In this document: positions 11,294 to 64,000 of the stretch, one piece after another
Position numbering within the stretch: the stretch's first letter is position 1
How the letters are laid out: each line of letters opens with the position of its first letter
Assembly: GCF_024713945.1 (NCBI RefSeq)
Contig: NC_134684.1
Location: forward strand, 3,727,001 to 3,791,000
Direction: 5' to 3'
DNA: 64,000 nt
Source of the DNA: Dermatophagoides farinae
Taxonomy: Eukaryota; Arthropoda; Arachnida; Sarcoptiformes; Pyroglyphidae
Position numbers and translations under genes: made by a program
Notes under the pieces: generated by a model
The model's input: only the letters and a program-made list of their open reading frames with translations
Database searches by the model: none
What the model was told of the DNA's origin: nothing

Positions 11294-12955
11294 TTATGCT
11301 AATCCAATAAAACTTTGCAATTGTTGATGTATTGGCTGCTGCTGTTGTTGCTGTTTCTGTATATATGGTGCAACATTTTCACTTAAATATTTTTTACAAA
11401 AATTTATCTGCTTTTCAAACAATTCAATCTGTCCGGCTAATTGTTTATTTTCACGTTCATATTGTTCAATATATGATTCCATTAGTTTTTGTTTTTCACG
11501 TTTAGACATTCGTTGTTTTTTTGTTCCATTTGTTGATGTTGATGGATGCGATACACCATTGAAATTGGCTGTTCTTTTACGTCCATGATGCTGATGTTGT
11601 TGTTGTTGTTGCATTTGATTACTAGTTGATGGCGCCGTTAAATGATTAGTATGAGAATTAATTGAATTTGTATTGTTTGCTGTCGGTAATGAAACTGGTG
11701 ACATATAATAATAATTGGTTGTCGATGTCGCTGTTGTCGATCCATTATTATTACTAGTTACAGGTGTTAGATTATAAATAATTTGATTCGATTGTAGATC
11801 TGTGGTTGTATTTTGATCAACATGATGTTGATGATGATGATGATGATTATGGCCACTAGGTACAAATGTTTCCGAAACAATTGTTTCATTAACAACTGTT
11901 GGTACAATTGATTGATATTGTTGTTGTTGTTGTTGTCGTTGTTGTGGCTGTTGTATTAATATTGTTGAACTATCGATTGGTTCTTGTTTAATATTCGTAA
12001 CATTATCCAATGTTGCAAATGTTTTTGTCTGTGAATTACATGAATCTAATGAATAATTTGATGAGATCGAACCGGCTGGTGAATTTGGATTTGGATAATA
12101 TGATGTTTGTTGTTGTATTGTTGGATTCATGTTAGTAGTCGCCGTAGTCGCCGTTGTTGTTGCCGATTGTGATTGATCACTTAAATAATCGACCAATGAT
12201 GACATTTCATCAAATTCATCTTTAATAATTGGTTGAGCACTTTCTAGATTCTGATAGGCCATTGATTGAATATTATTATTATTGCTATTATTGCTACTAT
12301 TTGATGAATCTGAATATTGTTGTTGTTGTTGTTGTTGTTGCTGTTGTAGCGGTGGTGGTGGTGGTGGTGGTTGAGGATAATTATAATCCGATTGTGGACA
12401 TACTTTATTCGGTGATACTGGTGCCATTTCTGGTGAACTCATATTTTCTAGATTTATTTCTGAACTTTCTAATAATGGTGAATAGGATTTACGTTCATAA
12501 TAATTTTGTTGTTGTTGTTGTTGTTGTGGTGAATCAACATAGTTATATAATAATGATGATGATGATGATGAGTTGCCATTTGACATTAAAATTGATTGAT
12601 TATTATTAATCAATAATGAAGATGATGATGATGATGATGATGAATTAATAATCATTGGATTTATATTGGTCAACATTGCTGCTGCTGCTGCTGCTGTTGT
12701 TGTTGATGTTGATGATGGTGCTACTGCTACTGTACTACCATCTATTTGTTGAGCATAAACATCGGTAAATATTTGATGATCATTATTATATGTTTTTTCT
12801 GATTGAAATGTTGGATGAAATGAATCCAACATATCAACAATATCCGGTGTATTAAGGGTATTGCCCATAAAATCATTGCCAACAATATTATCATCATACA
12901 TGATCGATGGATTGATTGTTGTTTGTAGATATGGTAAATGTGTATTTGTAGCCAT
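11294..12955 (-). CDS. CHOP-like bZIP transcription factor
   Basis: A single open exon encodes 553 residues. The ATG at 12955 was chosen because the frame upstream of it has no ATG and passes into an A/T homopolymer. Most of the chain is low complexity, with runs of Gln, Ser, Asn, Pro and Ala. Two Psi-K-x-E SUMO-type sites are visible (I-K-D-E and I-K-Q-E). The C-terminal part, about residues 479-525, is a basic stretch followed by a coiled coil with a-positions I, N, I, I, L and d-positions Y, L, F, C. The Asn at an a-position is typical of bZIP dimers. The N-x-x-A-x-x-C/S-R motif of DNA-binding bZIPs is degenerate; instead K-Q-R-M and K residues stand where human CHOP (DDIT3) has the same. 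From the family, such proteins dimerise with C/EBP or ATF4 types in the nucleus and alter their DNA choice. A divergent ATF4 or C/EBP relative is the alternative. The bZIP-like call is fairly secure; orthology to CHOP is inference. Confidence 0.7.
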   Translation of the reverse strand: MATNTHLPYLQTTINPSIMYDDNIVGNDFMGNTLNTPDIVDMLDSFHPTFQSEKTYNNDHQIFTDVYAQQIDGSTVAVAPSSTSTTTAAAAAAMLTNINPMIINSSSSSSSSSLLINNNQSILMSNGNSSSSSSLLYNYVDSPQQQQQQQNYYERKSYSPLLESSEINLENMSSPEMAPVSPNKVCPQSDYNYPQPPPPPPPLQQQQQQQQQQYSDSSNSSNNSNNNNIQSMAYQNLESAQPIIKDEFDEMSSLVDYLSDQSQSATTTATTATTNMNPTIQQQTSYYPNPNSPAGSISSNYSLDSCNSQTKTFATLDNVTNIKQEPIDSSTILIQQPQQRQQQQQQYQSIVPTVVNETIVSETFVPSGHNHHHHHQHHVDQNTTTDLQSNQIIYNLTPVTSNNNGSTTATSTTNYYYMSPVSLPTANNTNSINSHTNHLTAPSTSNQMQQQQQHQHHGRKRTANFNGVSHPSTSTNGTKKQRMSKREKQKLMESYIEQYERENKQLAGQIELFEKQINFCKKYLSENVAPYIQKQQQQQQPIHQQLQSFIGLA

Positions 12956-13303
12956 TATAATCAAAAAAAAAAAAAAAATTCGTTGATGATGAATCAACAA
13001 GTTATTCACTTTTTTTTACAAATTTAATGTCTTCACACGAATACACGTGAAAAAAAATTTTTTTTTTCAATACCAAAAAAAACAACAACAACAACAAAAA
13101 ATGTTAAAAACAATAAATCAAAATCGATTTATTGATTAAAAAAAATTTGTTAACTTTTTTTTCAAAAATCAGAGATAAAAAAATGCAAATACGAATCACT
13201 GATCACTGATCACTGTTGTTGTCGTTTTTTTTCTGGTTGAAATCAAATCAAATTGAATGAATGAATAACTTGAATATGCACGTTTGACAAAAAATGTGTA
13301 GGA

Positions 13304-41939: not shown

Positions 41940-44900
41940 TCATTTTCCATCCAGATAATGCATCAATTGATCGACAATATTGGCAAAGTTTAACCGATCT
42001 TCTGGCCTAAAATATGTGTGATGAGAAAAAAACAAAAATTAGAATCCAATCAACAAGTTATGATATTTAATGAACGAAATTAAATGAGAAAAGTTTAAAA
42101 AAAAATCTCCAAAGAAATCAGAGCAATCAGGGTTGCAAAAAGTTTGGCTGATGATGACGTCGAGAACGTTTTCTCGTGTTTGGGGACTTGAAATCATTTT
42201 TTTTTATTTTTATTTTTGGTCCAAATTTGCAAACAAACACACAGAAGCCACAAATTGGATTGGAAAATATTGCTATAAATAAATAAATGAAAATTTGATT
42301 CACGAAAAAAGCAGCAAAATACAGCTGTACTTGCTTGACCCATTGGAATATTTTTGTTTTTTTTGTTTTTATGTTTTTATTGCTGAGAATCGAGAAAAAA
42401 AAATTAAAATTCAGTATTTTTTTGTTGTTGCTATCGAAGAATTCATGCTTGAAATTATTGGCGAATCGTGCCTATTAGATTTATATATATATATGCAATC
42501 GATTATGGATTTCAAAAGTAAATTTATTCCATGCTATTTGTCTGCGTCTATATGGAAAGAATATGGAATGGAAATGGATTTTAATTCAGCAAATAATACA
42601 GAAGAACAAGAGGGAAAAAAATGTCAAAATTTTCTGCAATGAATTCTTTTTTTTTGTAGTTCAAAATTAGAAAACGGACAAACTCTATACCATCGTATTG
42701 AATATATATTGCCCATATAATATGGTGAAAAGAATTGATTCAAGATCCCCATCTCTTTTTCTCTTTACATTTTGCTTTCCTACCACACCCATTAATGGTA
42801 TACAACTGTTGTCATTGATAAATTCTAGATATTCATTCAATGATGATGATGGTGGTGGTGGTGGTGATGGGATTGCTAAACATATGAACCATTTATAACA
42901 ACAACAGGCCGACCAAAAAGGAGAAAAAAAAACATTCTGTATGGAATATTTCGACAGCAAAATCATTTTGAATTTTGATTATATGTTGCTGCAAGTATTC
43001 ATCATCATCATCATCGTCATCATATACATTTTGATAATTTCATTACGCAAGACTTGTGTAAAGTTTTTTTTTCATTTTTTTCTCTAGTTCTACAGATATG
43101 ATTCTTCAGCGGAAAAAGATGTGTAGACATACAAGAGTTCAAGAAAGAAATAAAAAAAAATGAAGGAAAAAAAATCAAATTTAAAATTTAAATTTTTTTT
43201 CCTTATTTTCTTTTCTTTTCTTTTTTTTATATATTTCTCTTCTGGTTTTTTTTTATTGTTCAGAGAAAAGAAAAACTTACTTAAATTGCCAACAACTCCA
43301 CATTATTTGATAGATGATGACAGAACAATTCTCTGGTTTAGGCAGTCGTCGATTTTCATTGAACATTCGTAGTATGTCCTGGCCGTCCATGCCCTAAGAG
43401 GATAAATATTCGAAAAAAAAAATAAAAATGAAATAAAAAAAAAGAATGAATGAACATAATGAAAATTGTATTTTTTTCCGGTAGAATTGGCAAAATAACA
43501 AGCACAAGTATATTCTTCATGTATGTAAGACAATCAATGGAATAATAATAAAAAAAAAGTCAAATACATACCTGATAAGGCATTTCACCTCGAGACATTG
43601 CTTCCCATAATGCTACTCCAAAACTCCATACATCCGATTTTGAACTGAATTTATAATAATAGATGCATTCAGGTGCATACCATTTGAGTGGCCATTTCGA
43701 TGCCGAACGAGCTTTATAATAATCTTTACCTTGGCCAAGGGCACGTGACATACCAAAATCGCTTACTTTGGCAAATTTTTCATTAACCAATAGAATATTA
43801 CGAGCGGCCAAATCTCTATGTACATAATTCACATCTTCAAGATATTGCATTGCTTTTGCAACCTGAAGCATTAAACGTAAAATGTCCATATCGGTCAAAT
43901 TTTGGCCATGATTTTGTAGATATTTATTCAATGGTCCTAATGGCGCTAATTCCATGACCAACATGAATGGATCATTTTCACATACACCAATTAACCGAAC
44001 AATATGTCTATGATCAAGTTTAGCCATTGTTTGTGCTTCACGAAGTATTTCGGCCTTTATAAAAACCAGAAAAAAATACAATTAGCTACAATTACAAAAA
44101 AATTACAAATTATCAATCTACTTTTTACCTTTTGCTGCGGTACAGCATGACTTTTAAGCATTTTAACAGCTAAATTTATATTCGATGAACCATGTAATGA
44201 AGGAATGGTGGCCAGAAAAACATCACCAAAATATCCATTTCCAATTCTTCGTTTTAATGTTATACATCGTGGATCAAAACAAATTGGACCACGTTTACAT
44301 TTTTGTATCGTTTCTTGAACCTCTTCAATCACTTCATTCAAGCATACTAGATTGAATAGAGAATAAGAATTAAGATTTTCTATTAAAAGTATATACATAC
44401 TTAATTCAATGTCTTTAAGGCATTGTTGATTAGTGGCAGTTTCATTAGTGGTTTCTTGCTTATTATTATTATTATCACCCAAGGGCACTTGTTGGCTGCT
44501 ACATGACAAATGAATATTGGAAGGATTCATTGATGATGATGATGATAATGATAATGATTCACCAATAATGATATTATTAGGCCATACTGGTGTTTCAATA
44601 CAACAAGATAAAGGCGGCTGCGGTGGTGGTGGTGGCGAAATAGTTGGTGGAGGTAATGATGATGATGATATATGATGATATGATTTATGTTTTTGTTGTT
44701 GTTGTTGTTGTTGAAAAGAATTTGAATCATTTGTATGTAAGATTGATGATGATGATGTTGATGTTGTTGTTGCTGAAATATTCTTACTACAATTTGCCAT
44801 CATTATCATTGTTTCGTTATGGACATTTTGTTTTGGTGGAGAATTTGATGAATGCTATTTGAGAGAGAAAAAAAACACCAGAATATAAATGAATGAATGA

Positions 44901-47900
44901 ATTAATGGTAAGAATTATTTCAAAACTTATTTAGAATTAAAAGTTTCAAAATGGCAAAAAAAAAGAAAACAAAAACACATGACAAATGTTCACAAATATG
45001 TACAAGCAAATAATGCATTTCATTTGCCATTTTTTGTTTGTTTGATAACTTTTTTCCATACACACACACACACACACACACTAACACAATAGTTTTTTTT
45101 TTTTTTTTTGGTCGTAAAATGATAAATTCAAAGTTGAAAATTTCCGAATACCGATAATAATTTTTCAAACGAAAAAAAAACCAGCGATTCTGTTAATGAT
45201 GATGTATGTATGTCCGGAAATTCAAAAACTCAGTGAACAATCAAGCAACAACAACGAACAAAAAAAAACGAATACCTTAGTAGTGGCCAGAATGTTTCCT
45301 TTATGAAGAAAAAACTGATGTATTTCTTATCTGTGGAACAAAAATAAATGGCAATGGTAAAGCAATTTGGAACAGAAAAAGAAAAAGAAAAATCCAGAGA
45401 CAATGAGAAATGAAAATTAAACAGTAGCGACATTTTGCACAAATTGCACAGAAAATGAATCAGAATTCCAAATCAAGAATGAGTGGCAGGCAGAAAAAAA
45501 ATCAGGAATTCCAAAAAAAAAGACACGTCACCACAGTTGACATTTTTTTTCTCTTTTTTCTGGTATTGAAATTCCTGCCAGCAAACAAAAACAAAATTGA
45601 AAATAGAAATGAAAAAAAAACTTCAATTTTGATTTGAACAACAAGGGACCAAACCCGGACTAAATGTTGACATTGTTCCAACCAACCAACAAGATTTAAG
45701 ACAAGAAAAAAAATTGTTCTTCTGGCCACAAACGATAACTGAAACATAGATCGATCGGTACCGGTTTAATGATTATAATAATAATCAAACGTCAAGAAAT
45801 GACAATCTGAAATCTTGAAAAGAAAGAAAATCCTCTTGACATGTCTACTGTGTGTGTGTGTGTGTGACACTTGAGATTATCACCAAGAAGAAGAAGAAGA
45901 AGAAACAGAAAACCAGAAATTCGGTGTATATAACTGCAAAAAAATGGCAATAAAAATGACCACTAATGAATCTTGAAGAGATGTTTGTCTTCCGTCAGAA
46001 GATGTGACTAATGATGGGACATTTTTTTTTTATTTCCATTGAATAACCCGAATTGTCCGAAAGTTTTTTTTCGTTGATCAAGGCTATAATTTAAAAATTT
46101 TTTTTCTCGTTCCATTGCCATGATGGATATTCTTTGAACAACAACAAAAAAGTTTTAATATTTTTCTGGTGAATTTTTTTTTTTTTTGTTGATCGATTTG
46201 GTCAAGTTTTTTTTTCCTGTTTCAAGTTTGAACTTAGAATTTCTTCGTGAAAAAAAAAACACTTTGGGATTATGTGGATGGCAACAAAAAAAAATGTAAC
46301 CAAAAAAACTGACCAGAAGGGTAGTTTTGTTGAATGAATACAAGGGGAAAAAAATAATCAAAACTTCAATTGCATTAGCATAAAAATTCTATCAATAATT
46401 GGTGGACATCATAGGCTGTATCTCCAAACAAACAAACAAACCAATGTCAACCAATGTGTTCATTCGACTATGTTATTTTTCTGAAATATTTCAAATTCCG
46501 CTTTTCTTTCTTGGAGAAATGGACAGAAAAAAAATCAATAAAAAAAAGAAAAAAAGAAAATAATCGGGACCAACCAATATCATTGACCAGTGTTCGGTTC
46601 CGGGTTTGAATTTGAATTCAATATCAATGTGTCTATGGCTATGGCTATGTTGTATACCAAACAGAAGTCTGCAATTATTTATCCAAAAAAAAAATGTTTA
46701 TATACTGTACATGATGGACATTCGAAATGAAATGTTTCAAGATACATAAAAAAACGAAAAAAAAAAAAAACACTGGATATGTGAATTTATTATTATGCAC
46801 ACAATCTGTGCTGTTGTTGTTGTTGTTGTTGTTGTCTATTTTGAAAAATTCATGACAAGATTAAAACGATAACGATCGGCAAAAAAACAAAAAGCAAAAA
46901 AAAAAAAAATATTATGACTGCCAATTCAATTGTGAAAACAATAATAATAACGAATATGAATATAAATTGAATTGAATTGAATTGAATTCATACAGTACAG
47001 TACAGTACAGTTGCCGATGTGTTTTCAACAGTGAAAGAAAAATCTATATATAGTAAATAATTGAAGTATGAAAAAAAATCCGGCATCAATATCATCGACA
47101 TCGTTGTGCAAAAAAAAAAAAAAAAAGTTCAGATCCGATCATCATCATCATCATATGGGTATCATGTCAATTTATTAGTTTCACATATCTCACAAACACA
47201 CACACACACACACACGCACGAAAAAGTCCAGATCTCTCTCTTTCTCTATCTCACTCGGTCTTCATTTATTTCGGTAAGAATAATGATGAAAAAAAGAAAC
47301 ATCAACAATAAATAGAAAAGAATGTGTGTGTGTGTGGATGGAAAAAAGAATCCGAAATTCTTCAGCCATCATCATCATCATCCATACATGAAATGAATGA
47401 AAACAGACTTTTTTCAAAAAAAAAAAAAAACAGAAATAGATATCTGGCAAGAAGAAGAAGAAGAAAAAGAAGAAAAAAAAATCTGGAACAAACATGCATT
47501 TGATGATTGATAATAATCATTCTGTATACTGATACTGGTAAACTTTGAAATGGCCAAATCAGAATGAGAGAGAGAGAATAAAAAGTTTCAGGATTCTTAA
47601 ATACATCTATATTCAAGTTGACTCATAATGATGATGTTGATGATGAAGATGATGAAAAGATTAAGATTATTATTTATATTTATTTATATTCGATAAACTG
47701 AAACTTTTTTTCCAAACAAAAAAAAAGAAAAAACTCTATTTATGCAAATCAATAGAATGATGATGATGACATTTTTTTTCATATATGAATTGAAAATGAA
47801 AATAATTGAAAATGCCATCAAATCCAATCAAAAAAAGGAGGAATATGAAAATCCAGTTATAAGTTGATAAAATTGAAAATTTCTGCAAAAAAAAAAATTA

Positions 47901-50900
47901 AAATAAATCGATTGAAGAAAAGAAATTCCTATTTTCCTATATATATAATATATCTGGATACAGGACGTATGTGAAATGAAAAATTAAATATATGATGATG
48001 ATGACAACATTTTTGCAATTTGGCCATGGCCATTAATTTTCATTTCGTGCCAATGTTTACGAACAAAAAAAAATTAATGTGAAATAAAATCCAATGAAAG
48101 TAGAAATGGTTGAAATTTTAGAAACATTACATTAAAATCATTGGATTGGATTTTTTTTTTTTATTGCCCATTAATGAAAATGGTTCTTACCGTTGAAGAA
48201 TTGTCAGTCAATGTTGAACTATCATCATCCAATTGATCATGATTATCAAAACAAACATCAAATTCTTTAAGTAGATCAATTATAGGTGGACAATTTTGAT
48301 GATGATTCAAAATTGTTGACATTATCGTTGTAGCCATTGATGATGATGTCGTTGTTGTTGACAATGGAGTTGATTGCATTGAATTGTTCTTAATATTAGT
48401 GGATAATGCTGTTGTTGTTGTTGTTGCTGCTGCTGCTATTCCTGTAGAAACATTACATTGAGACGCCGATAATGATGATAATGGCGGATGAGTGGTGGAT
48501 GATGTTAATACATTTGCCGCCATATCTGTAGTCATTGTTGCTGTTGTTGCTGCTGTTGAAGACGATGATGAAGATGATGATGATGTTGATGATGAACAAC
48601 TTGAATGATGATTAATCTCATCAATTTTATTTTTATTTTCTTCATCATTCTTCAGAATGAAAAAGTTCGAATCCATTAAATCATTATTATTATTATTATT
48701 ATTATTAAGATTCAGTGAAGTAGAATGAAATGATAAGTGACCATTGCTGTTATCATGTTGCTGAACAGCATTAGCAGCAGTATTTTGAAGTGATTTTGTC
48801 ATCATCATCATTGATGTTGTTGTTGACAATGATGGTACCGTTGTTGGACCAAAAGATCGATTACAAAAACGGCCATTGCTACCGCTACCGCTACTATTAC
48901 TATTTGTACTCATACTGCTGCTACTACTTCCGCTACTTGTCGTCCCGCTTAATGATGAACAATTTTTACCGTTATTATTATTTTTATTATTATCTTGTTT
49001 CGTTGTTAATTCACGATGATTATGATTATGATGATGATGATGATTCGATGAATCGCCTGAAACAAGTGGACCGTTAAGATTATTAAATTGTAGTTGTTTT
49101 GATTGTTGTTGTTGTGTTAAATTTGTTGCTGTATGGCCAATAATATTGTTATTTAAAGATTGAAATCCATTCATGCTCGAATTTTGAATGAAATTCATTC
49201 CACCATTCATAATTGAATGATTATTATTATTATTATTTGATGATGAAGATAATGTAAAATCGTTTGTCAACGACGATTGTTGCTGATGATGATGATCATG
49301 ATTGAATACTGTTCGTAATTCATTCATTGCTGTATCATTGCCATTTGATAGATTGATAATACAATCATTTTTAGCCATAATAGTTTCTGGTAAACTTTGA
49401 AATGGATCATTTAAATCATCATCAATATCCAGTAGCCAATCTGAACAATTACATTGACATTGATGATGATCATTATCAAATGAATTGGCACGATGTAATA
49501 ATGGTTTAGTTGATTGATTATTATTATTATTATTATTAAAATGAGAAATATTCATCGAATCAGAATCAAATTGATTATTATTGCCATTGAATCCATTCAT
49601 CATTTTGACCATCGTTGATGTGGTTGTTACATCATTCGTTTGATGATCCAATGATGGTCGAAAATGTAGACGACGAATCTCTTCGATTGGATCATTAAAA
49701 AAGGCCTAAAATAAAAAAAAGCGACAAGTTATTAAGCATCGTAGTAACATGAATGAATAAAGGAAAAAAATACGGAAAAAAGATACCTAAACAAATGGTT
49801 TGGCAAGAGTGAACAAAAAAAAAAAGAAACAAGAAAAAGTATTCTGTATAGCCAATTTTTTTTCTTTGGCGGTTGAATTTAGCTTTGATTGGATTGATGT
49901 CGTTGGAGAAAAAAAAAGCCGACGGAAACGAAAGAAAACAAAAAAAAAAACAAAAAAAATTCCAATCAGGCTGTCAGCCTTTCATTCATTCTTTCACTAT
50001 GTGTGTGTATGTGTACATTCATTTTCATTTGATAATGTTTGATATGTTCGTTTGAGCGTGATTGAACAAATAATGTTTCCAATATACAAAGCTTCAATTC
50101 ATGACATGATGATGATGATGTTGTTGTAGCAGAAAACAAGAGAAACAAAAACGAAACAAAACATCTCAATTCATTGGAAAAAAGCATAGGCATCATCATC
50201 ATCATCATGATCCATTGGTAACAATTAGAAAAATCAAATTGAAACAAACGAACAAATGGGTGAAACAAAACAAAACAAAGCAAAAAAATTAAGGTTCACA
50301 ATCAATAATAACAAAGTCAAATTTTTATTCCAGAATATCAATATGCCAAATCAAAGATTGTTGGCCGTCAATCAAATGGGATTATTTTTGCCATTATATA
50401 TAAAGGAAAAAAATCGTATTCTAACTTTAAAAAATTGTCAAAATTTTGACAATTTTTTTTTTAGTTGTTGCTCTTTTCACTTTTCAATTTTAATTCAACA
50501 AACAAAAAAAAATCATTCAAAAATGACAACTAAAAAAAATTGAAAAATTCAAGTTCAACTTTTTTTTTTGTTTTTTTGTTTTGTTTTGCACACACATAGA
50601 TAACAACAATTTAAATCTGAATATGATGATAATGATGATAAGAAACAGAATTTTTGAACAGAATTCTACTATTGAAACATGAAGATTCATTTTGATTTTT
50701 ACATCATATACATCATATCATCATAATGTTGATGATGTGCACGAATTTCATTGCAATTCATATATATATAGACTGAAAGAGAGAGAGAGAGAGAGAAACA
50801 GGACAGGAAAGAAAAAAACATAGTGTATGCTCTCATTCTAGATTTCTTGAACTTTTTTTTTCGACGATGATGATGATGATGATGATGATGATGGAACGTG

Positions 50901-52622
50901 ATTCGAATCAAATATGTATGTTATGTATGTATGAATAGCATTCCGTTTGGAAGCTTGGAGGACAAAACAAAAAAAAATGTGAAATGTGAATTTATTTTTT
51001 GGACAAATTGCCGAAAGGAAATACTACTCTATTGATTCTTATCGATATCCATAACACAGGAACCAAAACACACACACAAACAAAAAAAAAACAGTGAGTG
51101 AACAAGAGATTCGTGCAAATATTTTGTCGTTCAAGTTGAAACTGAAACTAAAACGAAAAATTCTTGCTGCTTTGTAAAAGAATCTTCTTTTTTTTTCTTT
51201 GGACAATAAATCAGCAATCAGTCTTTGTGTGTGTGTGTGTGTGTGTATTTGTGAAAGAGAAAAAAAACAAACATTCAAACGAATCATTCATGTTCTTTTT
51301 CTCGACATTTATGCTATACACATAATTGATTGATTGGTAAAAACCATCAAAGTTAATGCCACGTGTATATAAATGTGTTTGTGTTCAAATGTGATTCTTT
51401 TTTTTTCTATGATTTCGATTGTCAGTGAAAACAAATGAATCGATATGTAACATGGAAAATGGAAAAAATGAAGAAAATTTCGGGGAAAAAAATAGCAAAA
51501 AACTTACCGCTATGGTATCGATTGAAGATGATTTTATAAGGGCTGTATGATGACGATGATTCTGATCATTATTATTATTATTATTATTGGTCATGGTTAT
51601 TCGATTATTGCTATTATCATCATCATCATCAACATCGTCATTGACGCCATCACCATTATCATCAATATCATTTGGTTGTGTTAATTTTGAATTTGAATTC
51701 ATATCATTTTGCATCGTAGTAGTGGTTAATTTTGTTTTTGCACTTGGTGTATTTGTTACAGAATTTGTTTGCCTATTCATATTGAATGTTATTTCATTAT
51801 CAAATGCATAACGGCTACCAAATGCCGGTTCTTCATGCCAACGGCCAAATTGTTGTTTACGATGTTGATAACGTGTTGTCGTTGTACCATAACCATTGAT
51901 TAGACAATAACGTTGACTAGGAAGACATTTACATTGTATATGTAGATTTGTTGCTGGAAATCGATATGGTTCATTATGGCCATTTAATAATTCTTTCAGA
52001 TTTCGTGTTTTAACATTTTTTGGTACTTTGCTTACATGACAACAGGTCATTTCTAAATGAAATAGAAAAAAAAACAGAAAAAAATGAATCATTTTGAAAT
52101 GAAAAATTTTAGAAACAAAAATCACTAACCATTAGTGCCATAATTGTCTTCATTAATCAATGGCTGTTGTCTTTGATGATGTAGTATGACTTGTCGTTTA
52201 ATACGTGCCCATTTATGATTAATGGTGGTAAACCATTCTTTTAATTTAAGATTCGTTGGCGTCGAAACACGACGTTGTCTATGATATCTATGATTATGAT
52301 GATGATGTGTTGGAAATTGTAATTTCAAACATGTTTTACATTTATTATTAAAATCATCAAATGATGATGTAATATTATCATCATTTCCATGACGATGAAT
52401 AGTCAATACAAGATGATTTGGATGATTCGATACCTGATAAGGTATTGATGATGTACTATGATGATGATGATGATGGTTATGATTATTATTCTGTTGTTGT
52501 ATCAATGATATCTGTGCATTACTTTGTTCAGCATATTGTCGTATAATTTCTTGTGGCCGTGGACAACCATCGCCAAGCATACACCAAAGACCACCGGAAA
52601 ATATTGTATAATGTGATATGAG
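41940..52622 (-). CDS. SYK/ZAP-70-family tyrosine kinase with giant linker, 5' end missing
   Basis: Exons in transcript order are 52622-52130, 52052-51508, 49705-48191, 44854-44401, 44346-44129, 44054-43572, 43393-43281 and 42006-41940. All junctions are GT-AG and phase-compatible, giving 1,295 residues from the first exon seen. Residues 1-23 (L-I-S-H-Y to C-P-R-P) are the end of an SH2 domain. About residues 24-1030 form a linker rich in Asn, Ser, His, Gln and Asp. Then a complete kinase domain shows [11 protein letters not shown], the helix-C Glu, [11 protein letters not shown], the activation-loop tyrosine pair (K-D-Y-Y-K) and W-Y-A-P-E-C-I. The [13 protein letters not shown] stretch and the paired tyrosines match SYK and ZAP-70 better than Shark. 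Such kinases bind doubly phosphorylated ITAMs through tandem SH2 domains at receptors. The N-terminal SH2 and most of the C-terminal SH2 must lie upstream, but no exon for them was found between 52623 and the window end. Vertebrate linkers are only about 100 residues. Confidence 0.88.
42007..43280 (-). other. Last intron of the SYK-like gene
   Basis: This 1,274-base intron has a GTAAGT donor at 43280 and a TTTTAG acceptor ending at 42007. It contains a 115-codon plus-strand open frame at 42295-42642 with no recognisable similarity, which I regard as chance. Otherwise it is A/T-rich filler with a short (GGT)n patch near 42850. Confidence 0.7.
44855..48190 (-). other. Large intron of the SYK-like gene
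   Basis: This intron of 3,336 bases has donor GTAAGA at 48190 and an acceptor after a pyrimidine-rich tract ending at 44855. It lies between the largest linker exon and the exon that begins with residues H-S-S-N-S-P-P-K. No further exon or nested gene is evident; it holds poly-T, (CA)n and (GTT)n blocks. Confidence 0.7.
49706..51507 (-). other. Intron of the SYK-like gene
   Basis: This 1,802-base intron has donor GTAAGT at 51507 and acceptor TTTTAG ending at 49706. It contains a perfect 30-base palindrome at 50429-50458 and an (ATG)n run at about 50866-50892. No coding segment is apparent. Confidence 0.7.
50429..50458. repeat. Perfect 30-base palindrome
   Basis: Two 15-base arms meet without a spacer at 50443/50444, with TTGTCAAAA facing TTTTGACAA at the core and A/T ends. 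It lies inside a kinase intron. It could form a cruciform or be a binding site for a symmetric dimer, but no function is evident. Confidence 0.85.
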
Positions 52623-55600
52623 CTATACAATCAATCAATCAATCAATCAATTTTTTTTGGGAGAGAGGGACAAAAAGAAAAAAATAAATTAGTTTCAAAA
52701 GCAAAAAAAAAATGAAATGAAAAACTCTGTTCTGTGTATGTGTATCGCATTTTTTTCATCACGCTATTTTTTTTTTTTTTTTTTTTTGAACGATGTGTCA
52801 AATTTTGATACTACTGAAAAATAATAATAATTTGAATTGCAAACAAGAAAAAATCAATAATTTTTGTTTCTCAACCAGCAATGATTTGACAAACAAAATA
52901 AAAAAAAAATAAAAAAGTTTTCACCCCATACACATGTTTTTCACCATTGTTTTTTTTGGGGGTGTAAACACTGAAAAAAAATCGAATGAATGATTTTGAA
53001 TTCTCAAATGGCCGCATTCAATCGGATGATGATGATGATGATGGAGATGCTAATATTACGTATTTTTTTTTTTTGGTTGCAATTGCGAATGATTCAAACG
53101 ATCGTTATGGAGATGGATAATAGTTGAATATAACACACACACATAATGTGCATAAGTGAATGGAATCGAAAATTTTCGATTCGTTTGATTTGTCAGTGTG
53201 TTTGTGATTCAAAAAGATCAATACTCGTTTTTTTTATTCCATTGCAATTCAAAATCATTTTCTTCAATTGTAAACAATTTTATAGATAAAACGAATTTTG
53301 ATGGATATAATAAATTAATTATTTGAACCAAAATGATATATTCATAACTATCGTTACATTATCATTCCAAAAAAAAAAAAACAACAACAACAACACTGAA
53401 TTAATCACAATCGAACAAAAAAGAGGGTGTTTGTCAATGTTTATAATGTAAATAATAAAAAAATGTTAACAATTTTTTTCCCCGGGTGTGCATCAAACCG
53501 GAATCAAGAAGAAGAAGAAGAATGAAAAAAAACGCAGCACAGAATAACTGATTTGAAGAGATGGAATAAAAATGGTAAAATTGTGAAATGATTTAAAAAA
53601 AAGAAAAAAAATAGTCACATTATGTGCTCCAGGATTTCATCCATTCATTCAACAACAAGAATGACAAAAAAAAACGTTTAATTGATTTCGGAACAATGAT
53701 TTCGGTTCACTTGGTGGTATGGGTGTAGCCAAAATAGAGAGAAAAAATGGAACGAAGAAAAAGTAGAATTTTGCATTCAAGATTAAATTACATTCATTTT
53801 CGTCGTCATTGTCGTTATTACCATACACACACGAACACACACAGTAAAAGCTTATTGGATTGTTACGAATGAATGCCGATGAATGCTGTTGTTGTTGTTG
53901 TTGTTATAAAACACAGAGAATATATATTTGCAATCCATCCATTCCATTTATTTTTTTTGTTGAATCGAATGGATTACATTTATAGTGAATCAAAGTCAAT
54001 TTAAATTTAATCTGAAATGTTACAACTAACCATTTCAAATGACACTCAATCAAAATGATGCATTTAAATGAATTGTTCTACATATATGATCATATACAAT
54101 TAACTAAATGTAATGGATCGATCGATCGTTGTTGTCCATCGATGAAATGAACAAAACACCATAGACAGATTAAATTAAAAAAAAATGTTTGATGATGAAC
54201 AAGCCAAAATGAAAATGAAAATCGAATTGAAATGATGAACGAATAATAAAAAAATGTACATTATCTGTATACGGAACCGAAATTGTTTCCAATTTTCATT
54301 GATGATAATGATGATGATGATTGTAATTTTTCTAAATTGTTCCAGAAACTCGAAAAAAATATGATATAATAAAGAATAAGAATAAGATTTACCATTGGGA
54401 AACATGGGATTAACTCTTTTTTCTTCTCTTCACTCATTTCATTCGGCATTACGATTTACTTTTATTTTTCATTGTTTCACATTTTAAAACAAATGATGAT
54501 TCTTCATTATATAATTTATGTAATTGCATTGTTTTAATGGCAAACTTTGGGCGATGATTATGATGATGATGATGATTGGTGTGAATGGTGGAAGACGGTA
54601 TTTCAATTCACTTTCATGATTTTATGATTCAAAAAAAAAAAAACATTTGAACATCACATTATATTTAAATTGTTATTGCAACAATTTTCATTATATATAA
54701 ATTCTACGCTATATTATTATTATCATCATCAATTTTACCATGGTAAATGTTAGATAGCTGGATTGTTGTTTCATCATCATCATCATCATCATCATTAGAA
54801 TTTTTTGTTGTTGTTATTATTATTATTGGTTCCACACTATATTCGAAAAATGTTCGATTTATCATTGCTCATTCATATATGATGTGTCTCTTTGTGTATT
54901 ATTATTATTACATTCAAACAAATCAAATCATCTCATCATCATTGATCATTAGGGAAAAAGGACGGAAGGTTTTCGTTTTACTCTATTTTTTTCTTTCTTT
55001 CTTTTCAGAAAAATCTCATCCAACAAAAAAAAAACAAATTCAGCTTTATCATCATGTTGTTTAACAAAACGGAAACTTTGTCTAAAGAAACACAAACACA
55101 CACACACAGTTTCCCGGTTTTGGGTGTCTATTCAAAGTTTTTTTATTTTTTTTTTGATAATAATAATATGAATATATATGAAAAAAAAACCATTGGAACC
55201 AAAATCTCATTTTTTTTTGTCGGCAAAATATATTCTTCACTAACTATGATAACTAAAAAAAAAATCGATTTCCATTGACATGATACACACACACAGGATG
55301 AAACAAAAGAAGAAGTAGAAAAAATTCATCATCATTTTTTTTTGTCATCCATCGAATTATTCAAAGTTTCCAACAAAAAAAAAAAACGTTCAGCTTTGCA
55401 TTTAAAGAATTTGATTATGATGACCTAATTTTTTTTTCTGGCTAGCTGGCTAATTCTTTTCCAATCAATGTTTATAGATTCTTTTTTTTTTTGCTTCGTT
55501 TCATTATAATATAATCGTGTGTAGTGAATTCAGAGATTCAATATAACCTAATCACACACATACGATTAATTGTGTAATATCAGTACATTGTGTCTTTGTG

Positions 55601-56926
55601 GAACTTTTGAAACACCAAGAGAGAAAGAACGAGAGAGAGAGATCGAAACGGAAAATCACCAATTGATTGGTCCATTTGATTCGATTTTATGGCCATGTGT
55701 GTGTGTGTGTGTGTGACTCAAATCACTGGTATTCATTTTTGTTTATTTTGTCATGGTGTGTGTGTAATAGCAAATTGTTTTCGACGATACATCGAGAGAG
55801 AGAGAGAGAGATAAATTTAATTTAATTAACTTAATTATATATACGACGATCATGATGACAAACAAACAACAACAACAACGAAAAAAGTAGTATACTACTA
55901 CGGACTACAATAAATATATAAAAAGGAATGTTTGGCCGAATCCAATAATGATCATCAAATAATAAAACCAAAAAAAAAAATTCAATTTCAAAGGCAACAA
56001 CAATAACAAGAAAATCCCGAAGAAAATAACGAAATCGTGTATATATATATAGAACATACAGTATTGATGATAGAATGATGATTCGATTTAATATTGGATC
56101 GATCGATCGATCGATATTTATATTGGAAAATTTACTAAATTATCAGCATTTGAATTTGGATCAATAATTCTCTATATATATCTACATTCATCTTTATCAT
56201 CTGGATCAAAATCGTGATCATTCATTCACAGATTAAACACAGAATTTGGCTAATCCAAAAAAAAAAACAAAAACAAAAAGTAAAGAAAAATCAAAACAAA
56301 CAAACAAAAAAAATCACTATACATTCATTCATGTTTTATTATTGAATTCAATGGAGAATGAAAAAAAAAACAAAAAAATACTATGATCCGTTATATATGA
56401 ATGGCAGTGGTAAATCAAAATGTTTCTCACACACACAAACAAACAAAAAAAAAAAAAAAAACGAAAAAAAAAACAGGCCAGCTGTTTATTTTTGCAACCA
56501 TGCATGCATGCATGTGTATTGCATTCATTCATTCAGCCATGTCAATGTTTTTCAACTTTTTTTTCATTCGTTATTGCTGATGTGTTTGATCAGTGTTTCT
56601 CATCATCATCATCATCCACCAACGTCATCACATTGTCGAGAAACTGTCTTCAAGTTTTTTTTTGTTTCTTATAATATTCGATTTTAGTTAGGTCCAAGAT
56701 TTTCAATCAATTTGTACCACACAGAACCAACTAACACACACGACTATAATCATCATCATTTGGTTATATTTGATGATCTTATTTTTTATTCATTGAAAAA
56801 AAAAACTTTTTTTGTCGTCGTCGTCTTCTTTGTATTCATCATCATTATTCATTATTGTTTTCACAGTTTTTTTTTTGGTCACATCTCAAATATCATCAAG
56901 AAAAGAAAGAAAAAAAAAACAAAATC
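52623..56926. other. DNA between the SYK-like exons and the TraB gene
   Basis: Upstream exons of the SYK-like gene are expected on the minus strand, but no segment here resembles an SH2 domain. A 19-codon minus-strand frame at 54393-54449 starts with ATG and ends at a GTAAAT donor in the right phase; it is too short to support. The rest holds (ATC)n, (GT)n, (CAA)n and homopolymer tracts, and a GATC-GATC repeat near 56098-56114. The TraB gene promoter should lie close to 56900. Confidence 0.5.
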
Positions 56927-58931
56927 ATGAATCAAGATTCAAATTCATTCAACAATGAATGGCCAAGTTTGTCACAAAATAGTGATGGTGGTGATCAAAT
57001 GAAAATGAAAAATAACTTGACCACCAATATAATCACCAGTACTACTAATAATAAAGATTTTCATATGCTCATTAAACCGAATAATACATTCACGCCTATA
57101 AAAAATGACGATGAATATGATGATCATGATGTTGGTACAACATTGGAACAAAATGATTTTTCTCAAATGTCATTCTCATCATCATCATATCAACCGAATG
57201 ATTTGCCAGTTGAACAATCATCAACAACATTAGTGAAAGATGGCAACAAACAAAAAAATGATCATGATGATGATGATGATGCTGGTGATGATGATGATCT
57301 AGATCCAAATAACTTACCAGAAACAGTATCAATATTAAAAGCGGATGATAGAAGAATCGTTTATTTAGTTGGTACAAGCCATTTTAGTAAGCCAAGTCAT
57401 CGAGATGTCAGAAGGGTAATTTTTCATTTCTCATTCAAACAAAACACAATATATTTATATAGTGCAATGTATGTTTGTGTGTGTGTGTGTTTGTGAGCCA
57501 AAATGAAACCCAGATAATGTGTGAAGAAAAAAAAATAATAGGAAAGAAAAGTTAGAACAAAAACAACAACAACAACGAAAAACAAACGTGACTTTATACG
57601 ATATCATCATTTTCACACCCAAATGAATCACTAGGCATTTTTTTTTGTTTCCTATTCATTTTTCATATTTGATATATACAATTATAGATGTATGATGATC
57701 ATCGATGATCCATAATTTATCATGTACAAATTTTATTATTTGGAAATGTTTTTCTTTCTTCTCTTTTTTTTTCTTTTCTTTTTCACACACGGTTTTAGGT
57801 AATCCGAAAATTTAGGCCTCAAGTAGTTGTATTGGAACTATGCCGTAGCCGTATGTGTTTTCTATCGATGAGCGAAATGGAAATAATGAAAGAGGCAAAA
57901 TCATTGAATTTTCGTAAGATTCGTGATTATATGAAAAAGGTAAAATATATAAATCCATCTTTACCAAGATAAAATTCATGTGTTAAATTTTAATTTAAAT
58001 TGAATGGAATAGCATGGATTACTTCAAACATTCATATATACATTATTGCTGAGTGCATCAGCTCGTGTGACCAATGATCTAGATATTGCACCCGGTGGTG
58101 AATTTCGTAATGCATTCAATGAAGTATGTATTAACAATTCTAATTTGAAATTTGACCCAATTTAATCATCAATTCATTCGAATTTTTATCATTGTTTACA
58201 TGAAGGCATTAAAAATACCCGGATGTGTTGTCATGTTGGGCGATCGTCCAATCGATATTACATTAAGACGTGCCATTGCAACATTATCTGCATGGCAAAA
58301 GATTAAGATTACATTTCATTGTTTATTTAATTATGAAAAATTGAAAGCCGAAGAATTGGAACGATATAAACAGAAAGATGTTCTTGAGGTATGACTTTTT
58401 AGTGTAGAATTAAAGGAAAAGAAAAAAGAATTGAATTTTAATTTTAGCAATTAGTGGATGAATTTTCTGCCGAATTCCCTGGCCTATCACGAGTAATGGT
58501 CGATGAACGTGATATGTTCCTAGTGGATTCATTACGAAATGCAGCCAAAACAACACCACCGAATAGTACAATTGTTGGCGTTGTCGGCATTGGTCATGTG
58601 GCCGGTATCCGAGATAAATGGCAAAAAGAAGATATTAATGTTGAAGAACTTATCAAGTATGCTTAGTAGTTGATTTTTTTTATGATTAATATGTTTAGAA
58701 GAATATATCTTATCAAATTACTGATTGATTGATTTTTTTTTTGCTTTTGCTTTTTCTATATATTTTCATTCGTCGTGATCATAAAGGATTCCCGTAAAAA
58801 AACCATCGAAAACTTTTTTGGTTATCAAATATACATTCTATGGTGCCATAGCATATAGTCTATATCGTTATGTCATTCCAAATACGGTAAAAAATTGGAC
58901 ACATAATTTTGTTCATCAATTATCCAATTAA
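56927..58931 (+). CDS. TraB-domain-containing protein
   Basis: Six exons are 56927-57415, 57799-57939, 58013-58123, 58206-58388, 58448-58656 and 58787-58931. Introns are GT-AG, 59-383 bp, and the first four are phase 0; the product is 425 residues. The first 140 residues are a polar, acidic, probably disordered extension ending in an Asp tract. The TraB/PrgY-like domain follows, with the first G-x-x-H motif at Gly149-His152 (G-T-S-H-F-S), a conserved Glu176 in V-V-V-L-E-L-C, and the second G-x-x-H at 355-358 (G-I-G-H). A hydrophobic, tyrosine-rich segment near the C-terminus (about 388-408) may be a membrane anchor. From the family, animal TRABD proteins are linked to the mitochondrial outer membrane and the fold to a Tiki-like metalloprotease architecture; activity for TRABD itself is unsettled. 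The first ATG in frame after an A-rich leader was taken as the start. The extension is longer than in human TRABD (376 residues). Confidence 0.93.
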
Positions 58932-61900
58932 ATTTCAATGAAACGATAAACAAAGACAAACATATCAACTTTATTTTTTTTCTGTCCAATCAAAAAAAAT
59001 TTTCCAGCCTTTATCGGTTTCAATTTGAACAATCTAACAAATTATTCCAATATATCTGATAATTAATTTTTTTTAACAATTTATTCTTGAATTAAAAATA
59101 AATTCTTTCTAAACAAAACAAAACAAAACAAAAAAGGCTTGGCCAGAATCCGATTTGGAATTTTTTTTCGAACGTTCACCATTATTCATTTTATTTCAAA
59201 TGAATAAAAATTTGGTTTTTTTCTTTATTTCGATGATGGTTATCCAGAATTCGAATATATTAACAGTTTTCTGGCTGATAACTTTCTGGTAGTTATCGTA
59301 TTATTGAATGTTTATCCCCGATTAACTTTTTTTTTGTAGTTTTCTCGCCTGATTATGATAATGCCCATTTGCTACATAGCATACTTATTCTGGAATAAAT
59401 CAGAATAAAACAATATGGATATCAGGAACTATTCAGGCATCATCATCATCATCATCATAAATATTCTCAATTCAAGCAGCTTAACCACTTATATATAACT
59501 AACACACATGCACTGCTATAATAATGTAGAAAATCGGTTCAAAATGAAAAAAAAAACAACAACAACAACCATATCATCAACCAAACAGTTTCTGGTGAAA
59601 AAAAATAACATGACCAGAAGTTTCAAAGAAAAAAAAATAACCAAATACAAGACGAGAGAAAAAAAAACGATATCATTATCATCCATTATGGAGAATGAGA
59701 AAATAAGACAAGTACTTCAAGTCGTCGTTGTTGTTGTTGTTGTTGTTATTGTTATTATCATCATCATCATTATTGTTTGGATCCAATTGTCCATTGACTA
59801 AACCGAAGACAACAACAACAACAACAGAATATAAAATAAAATAAAACGATGACAATGATGATATTGCCAATGATTAAAAATTTGGGAAGGTCGTCATGAT
59901 CATTCTGGGTGAACAACAAAGATGATGATATAATTCTGAAACATTTGAACACAATGGATATATCAATGAATGTAACAACAACAACAACAAAAAAAAAACA
60001 TTTGATGGTGTCTGTATTTAGAAACACAAAGAAATTCACCATCATTCCCCATTGTCTTCATCATCATTGTATTAATAGCTAGATTCTGGGACGGGTTCAA
60101 CATACACACACACACACAAGAAAAATACCAAAGACCCAGGATCAGACAGTATGAGTTTTTTTCTTTACTTTTTTTTCATTCATTACACACTATTTACAAA
60201 GTTACTACTTTTGTTTGTTTGTTAAAAAAGAATCCTATTCATTGCAGGTTTTATGATGGTTAATTAATACAAATTAAAACATCCAACAACAGAATTTTTG
60301 TACAAGCAAAATTCTCTGTGTATAATAGTATTCGACAATGATGATGATGATGATCATGTTTTTGTAATTCTTTGATGTGACAACTTTCTGTTTTGTTTAT
60401 CATTATTCTTTTTCATATTTTTTTTTTTGCTTTTGATTCTTTGTTTTGTCTTTTTACACTGTTTACTATTCAGAATTTTTTTTCTTCTGTATACGATCGT
60501 AATGATCTTTAATGATCTTCAACCATCATGGGTGTGCGGTTCATACCTACAATGTATGCACATGATGATGATGGTCATTGGGTTTGTGTGTTTTGGCAAA
60601 AGTTTTGAGTATGATGATCAGGATGACGATGTAACCTGATTTGTAAATGTTTAAACATCTTATTGTGTGGTCATGTAATATTTGGTTGTTTTTTTTCTGA
60701 GCGAGAATTTCAAGAAATTCACTTCTGGTGTGTGTGTGTGTGTGTTGGTGTGTGTTTACATACATACATTTGAATCTCTCGAGACAAATCTCATCTTTTT
60801 TTGGATGATGATGTCTATGTGAATGATTCACATTTGGTCATTTTAGATTTACTAGAAAATAAAACATTATTCAGAATGACCAACGATAACAACAACAACG
60901 AGAAAAAAATCTTTGGCTTTATTTTTTCGATTTTCAGTATTTTTTTTTTATTTTGTTTTCGGTAGCCATTTTGATTAGATCTAATCTATTTAGATTGAGT
61001 TTTCTTTTTTCTCTACATAATAATGTTTTCACAATGGTAGCAGCAGCAGATCGATCAATAAAAAATCTATAAAAATTGATTTTCAAGATCCACCAAATGA
61101 TCCACCAATCCAAATTGATGTTTTGTTTGTTTGTTTGTTCATTTTTACGTTTTTTCTTCAATGAATTGATTTGATCATGATTCAATGATTAATGGTAACT
61201 GAATGTTTTTGTTGGAAGAATAAAAAAGAAAATTTGAAAATTCAATGAAAAAAAAAGAAACTACAACTGTCCATCCATCCGCCCATTGTTATCTGGACAA
61301 AAATAAAAACAAATGGTCAATAATGAAAACGATACACATGGACACTTTGATTGTGGATTCATTTCACACAAAGGTAGAATATTCTTACATCAAGAAAGAA
61401 TGAAACAAACAAACAAACAAAAAACGATTAATGTGACCAGAGAATACAATCAAAAGAGCAAAATGCACATTCAAACACACACGTAGTGCTCCAGAGATCA
61501 TTCGAAAAGAAAGTCAATAACTTATTTTGCACAACAATAGACACATTGTCACAGCGAAAAACGCGAAAACGAAAAAATAAATGACAGTTTTGTTTTCTCA
61601 ACATTAAACGATTAATGTTTTTTTTTTGGCCAATATATATCTATTTTTCACCAAAAAACAAAAAACAAAACAAAAAATAAAAGACACCAAAAACCATAAA
61701 AACAATCAGGCCATCGAATACAAATAACAACAACAACAACAACAAAACCAATTGGAATCATCATCACTGATGATATCACTTGAAAACGAAAAAAAAAGGC
61801 AAGTATCGACAAAAGTCAAACTATATTATATTATACTATACTATACCGCGCTAAAAACATTGATGCTAATAATACAATACTGACATACAATTTATTGAGT

Positions 61901-64000
61901 CATTTGTCTTTCTTCATTCTCATCGAACTCGAACTCGAACTCGAAACAAACAAATAAACAAATAAACAATGGATGAAGAAACAGAAACAAAACAAAACAA
62001 AAAAAAACAGTGAGCTAAAATCATCAAATGAAAGAATATTCTTTTTCTTTTATTTTTTTCCTACGAAAATTTTTACTGTTTTGGCGGCAGAAAAAGAAAT
62101 TTCTTTGCAAAGAAATCATCATCATCATCATCATCATCAATATCATATCAGAGGTTTGAATTTAAATTTAAATTAGCTTATTATTTGTTTTGTTTTGTTT
62201 GCTGCTGCTGTTGTGTAGATAAAATAAGTTTTCTACCCAGTTGTTTATCATCATCATCATCATATATATCATGATGATGCGTGTTGTGAATGTTTGACAC
62301 AAGGCCATAATAATATCAATGCAATGTATACCATAACCAGAAATAACCAGAGAGAAAAAATCATTGTCATTCTAGTAAAAAAAAAAATTCAGTTTCGGTT
62401 TTAGCAATCATTATTATTATTATATAACGACAATCTCTGTTTCTTTTTTCTCTTTCTCTCTGGATCATTCCATATTATTTGTTTGTTTCTTATGTGTGTG
62501 TGTGTGTATTCATTTTATATACTGTCGAATACAATACCGATGACAATCAATCTTTGGATTTAAAACTAACAGTAACAAACAACAACAACGACAACGACAA
62601 TAGTGAGAAACCTAAAGAAAAAGGGGATTTTTGTATTCCTGTAGTAACGAAATGAAGAAATAAAATTGGAAAAAAACAAACAGAAAAAAAAACAATAATA
62701 AATGAAAATTATTTGCATTTTGGATTTTGTTCGTTTTGGCAAATTGCAATAATAATAATGATGATGATGGTAATGGATGGTGTGGATCAGCAAGCAACAT
62801 GACAATTTTTTTTTTATTCTGGTTGTTTGCAACCATATTACATGTCATTGTTATTTGGTTGTAAGTAACCACTAAAAACCATCAAGAATTGTATGTATAA
62901 AAGAAATGACGAAAATCATCTGTATTCAATTTTCGGTGACACATATATAGTCAAATTTTTTATCATTCAAATCAGAATTAGTGTGTTTAAGCTAGGATCT
63001 AAACAATGTGTGTAGTGATAGTCTAGACACATAAGGAATTATTGGAGAGAAAAATAAAAATTTCATTCCACTGTGATGTGATGATCGCGCACATACAAGA
63101 GAGAGAGAGAACAATTTCCAATTGACCGGAAAAAACAGAACCAGAATAAAAAAAAATCAAATTGTTCATCTATAGATTTTTTTAGAACAAATGAACACAT
63201 TTATCATCATGATTACATCAGATCCAGAGAAAATGAAAATCAAAAAAAAAAATGAAATAAAATGAAATAAAATGGAATTACCGACCAAATTTTCTTGCAA
63301 TCAAGTTGATAACCATCATCATCATCACCACTGTCTATTAAGATCACTATATAATCTTGGTAATTGGCAATCAAAATTCTTCATGATGATCAAGTTAATC
63401 GTAAATTTATAAAAAAAAAAATCTTATTACTGCAATACGGATTTTCAGTTATTTTCTATGGTCAAAAATCCGACAACAATTCGATCGAATTTGTTTTTTG
63501 TTTTGTTTTTTACCATTTTCATTTCATGATAATGATAATGGGATGGAATTATCTTCTTTTTTTTAAAAAAAAAACTTGAAATTGTAAAATTATAATAGCA
63601 GAGACAGAGAGATAATTCAAGTCATCATTTTCTTGATACTTCATAACACTCAGACGCCAGATATTTTTGATAACATCGGCCAGTATTTATAATGTAAAAA
63701 CTTTAAATGTTTTTGTTTCAGCAACAATAATGGACAATATCATCATCATCATCTTGTTTTGATTTTGTTTGGATTGATGGAAAAATTTGTAGAAAAAAAA
63801 TAATCATCATTCTCAATGTTGCTGCCATTGAAACAAAAAATGTAGCTCTGTCTGTCTCAAATTCCATGTGTGTCTGTTCTGGAAAGATCACAAATCAATA
63901 GACAATTATCATCACCACTGCCCCATCAACGATAAACAAACAAACATTAAATTGATTGCAATAATGTGAAAAGAAATTCGAGAAAAACAATCAAACAACA
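58932..64000. other. Gene-free DNA at the right end
   Basis: After the TraB 3' untranslated region I find no supportable exon. Contents are (CAA)n, (ATC)n and (GT)n blocks, a (CTCGAA)n run near 61925-61945 and GA-rich patches. If the SYK-like gene extends further right, this could be part of one of its introns on the minus strand. A possible 54-base mini-exon at 63290-63343 is too weak to call. Confidence 0.5.
59097..59102 (+). terminator. Poly(A) signal of the TraB gene
   Basis: AATAAA lies 166 bases after the stop codon, a suitable position for the 3' end of this transcript. Confidence 0.45.

Follow-up and report, generated by a model that had tools for sequence, protein, structure and literature searches.

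In vertebrates, the tyrosine kinase SYK is described as being held at rest by a sandwich of linker and kinase and as being freed by binding to immunoreceptor tyrosine-based activation motifs (ITAMs) and by phosphorylation, which falls partly in a tyrosine-rich linker called interdomain B (PMC6135887, PMC8965820). Interdomain B helps to keep the enzyme inactive and docks adaptors (PMC6135887), and it comprises 110 residues in the human protein (PMC9486129). A much longer linker of 594 residues has been described for platyhelminth TK4 (PMC9486129), and in SmTK4 of Schistosoma mansoni the SH2 part extends to residue 292 while the kinase begins at residue 881 (PMC2820527). Here we describe a gene of the mite Dermatophagoides farinae whose kinase end lies in a window of 64,000 nucleotides (contig NC_134684.1, here C8:3727001-3791000; coordinates are those of the window unless marked C8). 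The predicted protein is a SYK-type kinase with the layout SH2-SH2-linker-kinase, and its linker is about ten times as long as that of human SYK.

The mite protein shares with SmTK4 the SYK layout and a greatly enlarged linker, but the SmTK4 linker is the shorter of the two, and SmTK4 reportedly lacks the conserved ITAM-binding SH2 sequence (PMC2820527), whereas the mite protein retains the SH2 arginines. When the isolated SmTK4 linker was studied in a yeast assay, it bound strongly to a MAPK-activating protein without added phosphorylation (PMC2820527), which makes it a precedent for partner binding by a long linker. It has also been reported that a key tyrosine site of the linker is not conserved in invertebrate SYK (PMC10253181). 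Since invertebrate SYK, a long flatworm linker and the loss of the tyrosine site are already in print, the mite linker is an extreme case of a known type. Among the open-licence papers listed by the literature searches, no title or abstract beginning described a mite SYK gene, and a predicted entry may exist in protein databases; 'SYK' is absent from the main text of a D. pteronyssinus transcriptome paper (PMC12105342). For D. farinae, a PacBio Iso-Seq set of 41,602 transcripts has been published (PMC8487952).

Identity and exon structure of the gene

The SYK gene was rebuilt as 11 coding exons on the minus strand of C8:3768940-3808476, in an AT-rich region (GC fraction 0.26-0.32 per 2 kb of the window). 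It runs past the window end, where three more exons lie within 17.5 kb; they were traced through a genome-wide SH2 search, which gave two pieces on the same strand outside the window (genome-wide searches covered 62,435,336 bases in 22 contigs). All 10 introns, which range from 54 nucleotides to 19.3 kb, have GT-AG ends and agreeing phases, and the exons join into a frame of 1,572 codons leading to a single stop, the exon borders having been set by eye to satisfy splice signals and frame. A protein of this length would have a mass of about 170 kDa.

Exon 1 (81476-81202 in window numbering, C8:3808202-3808476), exon 2 (80414-79995, C8:3806995-3807414, 420 nucleotides) and exon 3 (72049-71914, C8:3798914-3799049), all on the minus strand like the rest of the gene, encode the N-terminal SH2 domain, interdomain A and most of the C-terminal SH2 domain. 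The latter is split between exons 3 and 4 at KFESLIA/LISHY, and exon 4 (52622-52130; GT-AG, phase 0 in) completes it and encodes the initial 142 residues of the linker. The linker continues through exon 5 (52052-51508; residues about 442-623, GT-AG, phase 1 in and 0 out), exon 6 (49705-48191; 505 low-complexity residues without tyrosine, phase 0 on both sides) and exon 7 (44854-44401; residues 1129-1279, with poly-Gln, poly-Ser and a proline-rich stretch near residues 1197-1210). Exon 8 (44346-44129) encodes the end of the linker and the start of the kinase N-lobe with the glycine loop and Lys1341, exon 9 (44054-43572) the kinase core with the activation-loop tyrosines Tyr1464-Tyr1465, exon 10 (43393-43281) the C-lobe, and exon 11 (42006-41940) the kinase end, MHYLDGK, followed by the stop codon. 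The first-pass annotation of this DNA had proposed eight exons with matching phases; all eight are present with GT-AG borders, and they correspond to exons 4-11 of the 11.

When the whole protein was searched against Pfam, two SH2 stretches and one tyrosine kinase were found. The kinase match covers residues 1308-1565 and positions 1-258 of the 258 of the model, as expected from the full kinase domain annotated earlier, and the protein terminates 7 residues past it. The first 311 residues were compared with solved chains, and SYK was the top match, continuous over residues 47-297 (E = 1.4e-36), with ZAP-70 next. The SH2 end recognised in the first reading is thus real, and together with exons 1-3 it forms a tandem SH2 unit that aligns continuously to human SYK. 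Among the best 60 of 805 matches of the kinase to solved structures, the top SYK chain reached 278 bits and the top ZAP-70 chain 261 bits, and one tandem-EGFR construct outscored SYK as the sum of two 189-bit domains. Because these 60 include no chain of SHARK (SH2-ankyrin-SH2-kinase, a Drosophila relative), the call between SYK and SHARK rests on layout. Tandem SH2 domains with interdomain A, no ankyrin repeats and a kinase nearest to SYK/ZAP-70 confirm the assignment to the SYK family.

The SH2 arginines R77 and R234 align with SYK, as do R57 and R214, and W168 of interdomain A, the glycine loop, K1341, HRD and DFG are retained. In the activation loop, DYYKA at 1463-1467 aligns with NYYKA of SYK, so that the Y1464-Y1465 pair is kept. 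We take these residues to have their usual functional roles, including phosphotyrosine binding by the SH2 arginines. The mite protein is therefore like vertebrate SYK/ZAP-70 in its tandem SH2 domains, interdomain A with its tryptophan, linker, kinase, SH2 arginines and activation-loop Tyr-Tyr, but its linker has 1,007 residues where theirs has about 100-110, and it lacks the tyrosines before the kinase.

Length, variants and origin of the linker

The linker comprises residues 300-1306. Between the same two matches to SYK structure 4fl2 there are 996 residues in the mite protein (297 to 1294) and 96 in 4fl2 (260 to 357), which upholds the tenfold length first noticed; the mite linker is about 9-10 times as long as the human one. 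It consists of 14.6% N, 13.2% S, 9.8% T, 6.4% Q, 6.4% L, 6.3% H and 5.7% D. Asn, Ser, His, Gln, Thr and Asp together make up 56% of the linker, in line with the annotated richness in Asn, Ser, His and Gln. No Pfam match above the cut-off was found over exons 4-7, and a PDB search with exon 5 gave no match up to an E value of 1. FoldIndex values were +0.135 for the tandem SH2 unit and +0.136 for the kinase, indicating folded regions, and -0.203, -0.130, -0.057 and -0.029 for the four main parts of the linker, indicating unfolded ones.

The giant linker might be only one isoform among several, the usual protein having a shorter linker of down to about 170 residues. Exon 6 (1,515 nucleotides, 505 residues) has phase 0 on both sides, so its skipping would stay in frame, and omission of exons 5-7 (2,514 nucleotides) would also preserve the frame; the resulting join of exon 4 to exon 8 is in frame and would give the linker of about 170 residues. 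In addition, the 54-nucleotide GT-AG intron between exons 7 and 8 (44347..44400, minus strand) is open in frame (open frame 44057-44854), and its retention would insert 18 residues. Interdomain B of human SYK is itself spliced, SYKB lacking 23 residues (PMC6135887). However, skipping in frame has a chance of about one in three at each join and does not by itself show that it is used; we consider shorter usual isoforms possible but unlikely.

We then turned to the origin of the low-complexity tracts. Perfect trinucleotide repeats of at least four copies make up 10.2% of the sequence in the linker exons, whereas their share is 4.4% in the introns and 0.7% in the domain exons, and the leading repeat families (ATC, AAT and AAC) are common to linker exons and introns. 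Amino-acid runs of at least five residues are encoded by a single codon in 10 of 13 cases and by mixed codons in the other three. As a comparison set we used 19 distinct unspliced open frames of at least 280 residues from loci that the searches for kinases and SH2 domains had brought up. Of these frames, 13 contain a stretch of low complexity with 91 or more residues and the other 6 have none; the longest has 233 residues, against 611 in SYK, but the comparison frames are unspliced and the 611 residues span spliced exons, so the figure of 233 is a lower bound and the comparison favours SYK. Two further loci of this genome, which from their sequence we presume to encode an Abl-like and an ACK-like kinase, also contain poly-Asn, poly-Gln, poly-His and poly-Ser tracts, but the low-complexity stretches in their unspliced frames are shorter. 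Based on these observations, the tracts of the linker fit in-frame trinucleotide-repeat growth within a tolerant region and do not clearly amount to a new means of regulation.

The opposite view would be that selection has made the long linker into a device, such as a scaffold or a condensate-forming segment that clusters SYK, and that it is not a passive spacer. The poly-Asn, poly-Gln and poly-Ser tracts, the 611-residue stretch, the proline-rich stretch near 1197-1210 and the partner binding of the SmTK4 linker (PMC2820527) would suit such a device. However, the excess over 233 residues is measured against a lower bound by a stretch crossing several spliced exons, most of the tracts are built from one repeated codon and belong to the repeat kinds that also fill the introns, and low-complexity stretches are common in the comparison frames. 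We therefore regard a selected device as rather improbable.

Tyrosines and predicted activation

In vertebrate SYK, an activating pair of tyrosines is located just before the kinase. The linker of the mite protein contains ten tyrosines, nine of them at residues 307-523, within its first 224 residues, and the tenth at Y1187, the only tyrosine within residues 524-1317. Five of them are encoded by exon 5, one in a YxxP motif (YRFP). No tyrosine is present between 1188 and 1317, and the next one, Y1318, already belongs to the kinase. None of the regulatory interdomain B tyrosines found near the kinase in vertebrates, which are no prerequisite for an invertebrate SYK, is therefore present in the mite protein, and since the pre-kinase pair has no counterpart, the switch cannot operate in the same way.

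The long stretch free of tyrosine holds 0 in 663 residues, compared with 84 in 3,261 residues in the low-complexity parts of the 19 comparison frames. When the sequence was shuffled, a tyrosine gap that long appeared in 28 of 100,000 shuffles, a frequency to be read with the fact that the stretch was chosen after being seen. Because of this choice, and because arginine behaves alike (see below), we claim no selection against tyrosine.

It had been proposed that regulation of this kinase may differ fundamentally, and this proposal holds in part. The absence of the pre-kinase linker tyrosines speaks for a difference, and the lengthening of the linker by simple repeats suggests that the mite kinase is activated differently from human SYK. 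On the other hand, the protein retains its SH2 arginines, the tryptophan of interdomain A and the Tyr-Tyr pair of the activation loop, and both the loss of the linker site (PMC10253181) and a 594-residue TK4 linker (PMC9486129) were already known.

From these features we propose, as a reasonably probable account, that the mite protein is a SYK recruited by ITAMs and activated at Y1464/Y1465, with a linker that acts as a disordered tether made of a docking part and a repeat-grown spacer. The tandem SH2 unit would engage doubly phosphorylated ITAM-like tails and so draw the kinase to the membrane; activation at Tyr1464/Tyr1465 would follow, through Src-type kinases or by trans-phosphorylation. 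The switch that tyrosines beside the kinase form in the vertebrate linker would have been lost, and the long linker would act above all as a disordered, flexible tether. Docking, if there is any, would probably involve residues 300-523, which carry nine of the ten linker tyrosines, or the proline-rich stretch near 1197-1210; the remaining linker would be a spacer enlarged by in-frame trinucleotide-repeat expansion. If a SYK works with a linker ten times longer and with no tyrosines at the customary site, nature would offer a test of which parts of SYK control are essential.

Several observations weigh against this account. First, the negative FoldIndex values of exons 6 and 7 (-0.057 and -0.029) are weak, and the values for the 27 residues before the kinase (+0.106) and for the repeat-bearing N-terminal tail (+0.112) are positive. 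Second, the joins between exons 4 and 5, 5 and 6, and 6 and 7 are given by splice signals and phase only, with no domain continuity across them. Third, the lack of tyrosine may be non-specific and reflect only composition: the linker also shows an arginine gap of 391 residues, which was reached in 0 of 20,000 shuffles, and isoleucine is uneven too (73 of 20,000). A search for EMI domains that might have revealed a Draper-like ITAM receptor gave no match, but since its controls likewise gave none, it does not bear on whether such a receptor exists.

We also considered whether the linker-tyrosine switch has been replaced, in that a tyrosine-poor repeat linker of about 1,000 residues, tunable by exon skipping and slippage, sets substrate access or clustering. 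Such a replacement would uncouple ITAM recruitment from linker phosphorylation; at present it seems to us doubtful.

Continuity of the gene and neighbouring loci

Intron 6-7 is 3.3 kb long and has no domain continuity across it, which could mean that two transcripts are present: one for a tandem-SH2 protein without kinase that ends in or after exon 6, and one for a kinase without SH2 domains that starts near exon 7. When exon 6 is read beyond its donor (48161-48190, minus strand), the frame stops after 9 codons, with an AATAAA overlapping the stop. However, chance copies of AATAAA are frequent where DNA is AT-rich, exon 6 has a consensus-like donor (ACG/GTAAGA), the acceptor is AG with phase 0 on both sides, and the two halves combined give the standard SYK layout. 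Separate transcripts are accordingly very unlikely in our estimation.

We next considered whether the linker exons are coding. A codon score was trained on 31 frames of at least 280 residues from other loci against the introns of the SYK gene, with runs of identical codons removed; some of these loci overlap, several frames are counted repeatedly and the frames are not all necessarily genes. In the spliced frame, the coding log-odds were +0.18 bits per codon for exon 4, +0.41 for exon 5, +0.27 for exon 6 and +0.20 for exon 7. None of these four exons has a stop in that frame, and the other five frames each score lower and contain stops. For 500 noncoding stretches, the best of the three forward frames reached at most about 0, although these stretches come from the introns that set the background and the control is therefore not independent. 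The open frame of exon 6 has 514 residues, compared with 215 for the longest frame in a simulation of 30 noncoding sequences of 64 kb each, in which microsatellites were not modelled. Exons 10 and 11 are too short for the codon score (+0.04 in the spliced frame against +0.15 in another for exon 10, +0.14 against up to +0.40 for exon 11), and both lie within the kinase domain.

These results bear on the idea that the linker exons are an artefact of the assembly or of the gene model, consisting of noncoding repeats that are open by chance. The region is very repeat-rich, the simulation omits microsatellites, and the training set is small with a few recurring frames. However, the coding signal is specific to one frame even after identical-codon runs were dropped, stops are lacking in all four linker exons, and the frame of exon 6 far exceeds the simulated maximum, so that an artefact appears highly improbable.

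That the protein is SHARK itself has a negligible chance: the host is an arthropod and Drosophila has SHARK only (PMC2820527), but the single 420-nucleotide exon 2 covers the end of the N-terminal SH2 domain, interdomain A and the start of the C-terminal SH2 domain, which leaves no room for ankyrin repeats, and none is among the six Pfam families listed for the whole protein. SHARK had been the first candidate because the host looked like an arthropod, and the exon structure ruled it out. SHARK and its relative HTK16 resemble the mite protein as invertebrate proteins with SH2 domains and a SYK-like kinase, but they carry ankyrin repeats between the SH2 domains (PMC9486129, PMC10253181), which the mite protein lacks.

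When the genome was searched with the kinase, the next match beyond the exons of the gene itself scored 194 bits with 40% identity over query residues 5-257 and has an SH2 domain adjoining; we take this locus to be Abl-like. Identity was higher in shorter pieces of other kinases, reaching, for instance, 45% over 182 residues and 51% over 49. Comparison by eye of all 39 SH2 matches with the ankyrin matches listed revealed no cluster of the two, although split exons may escape such a search, as the two listed SH2 pieces of the SYK gene itself scored only 27.7 and 28.5 bits. Among the matches listed, the closest SH2/ankyrin pairs are separated by about 26 kb on contig C6, where they occupy opposite strands, and by about 29 kb on contig C7, where they share a strand. 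The SYK gene may thus be the only SYK/SHARK-type kinase gene of the genome. If this is real, the mite would have SYK without SHARK, the reverse of Drosophila, although the SHARK search was of low sensitivity.

Other genes or open frames were observed in the window. Intron 3 of the SYK gene is 19.3 kb long, and its part within the window covers 52623..64000 of the minus strand. Inside this intron, on the plus strand, lies a TraB/PrgY/gumN-family gene at about 56918-58665; its translation, with exons joined by eye, matches PF01963 (E = 1.7e-22), the first exon alone remaining below the cut-off. The longest open frame of the window, at 11297-13015 on the minus strand, encodes 573 residues with Pfam matches far under the cut-off and is a candidate gene. 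On the plus strand, the open frame 39443-40204 matches AMP deaminase (PF19326, E = 3.5e-118).

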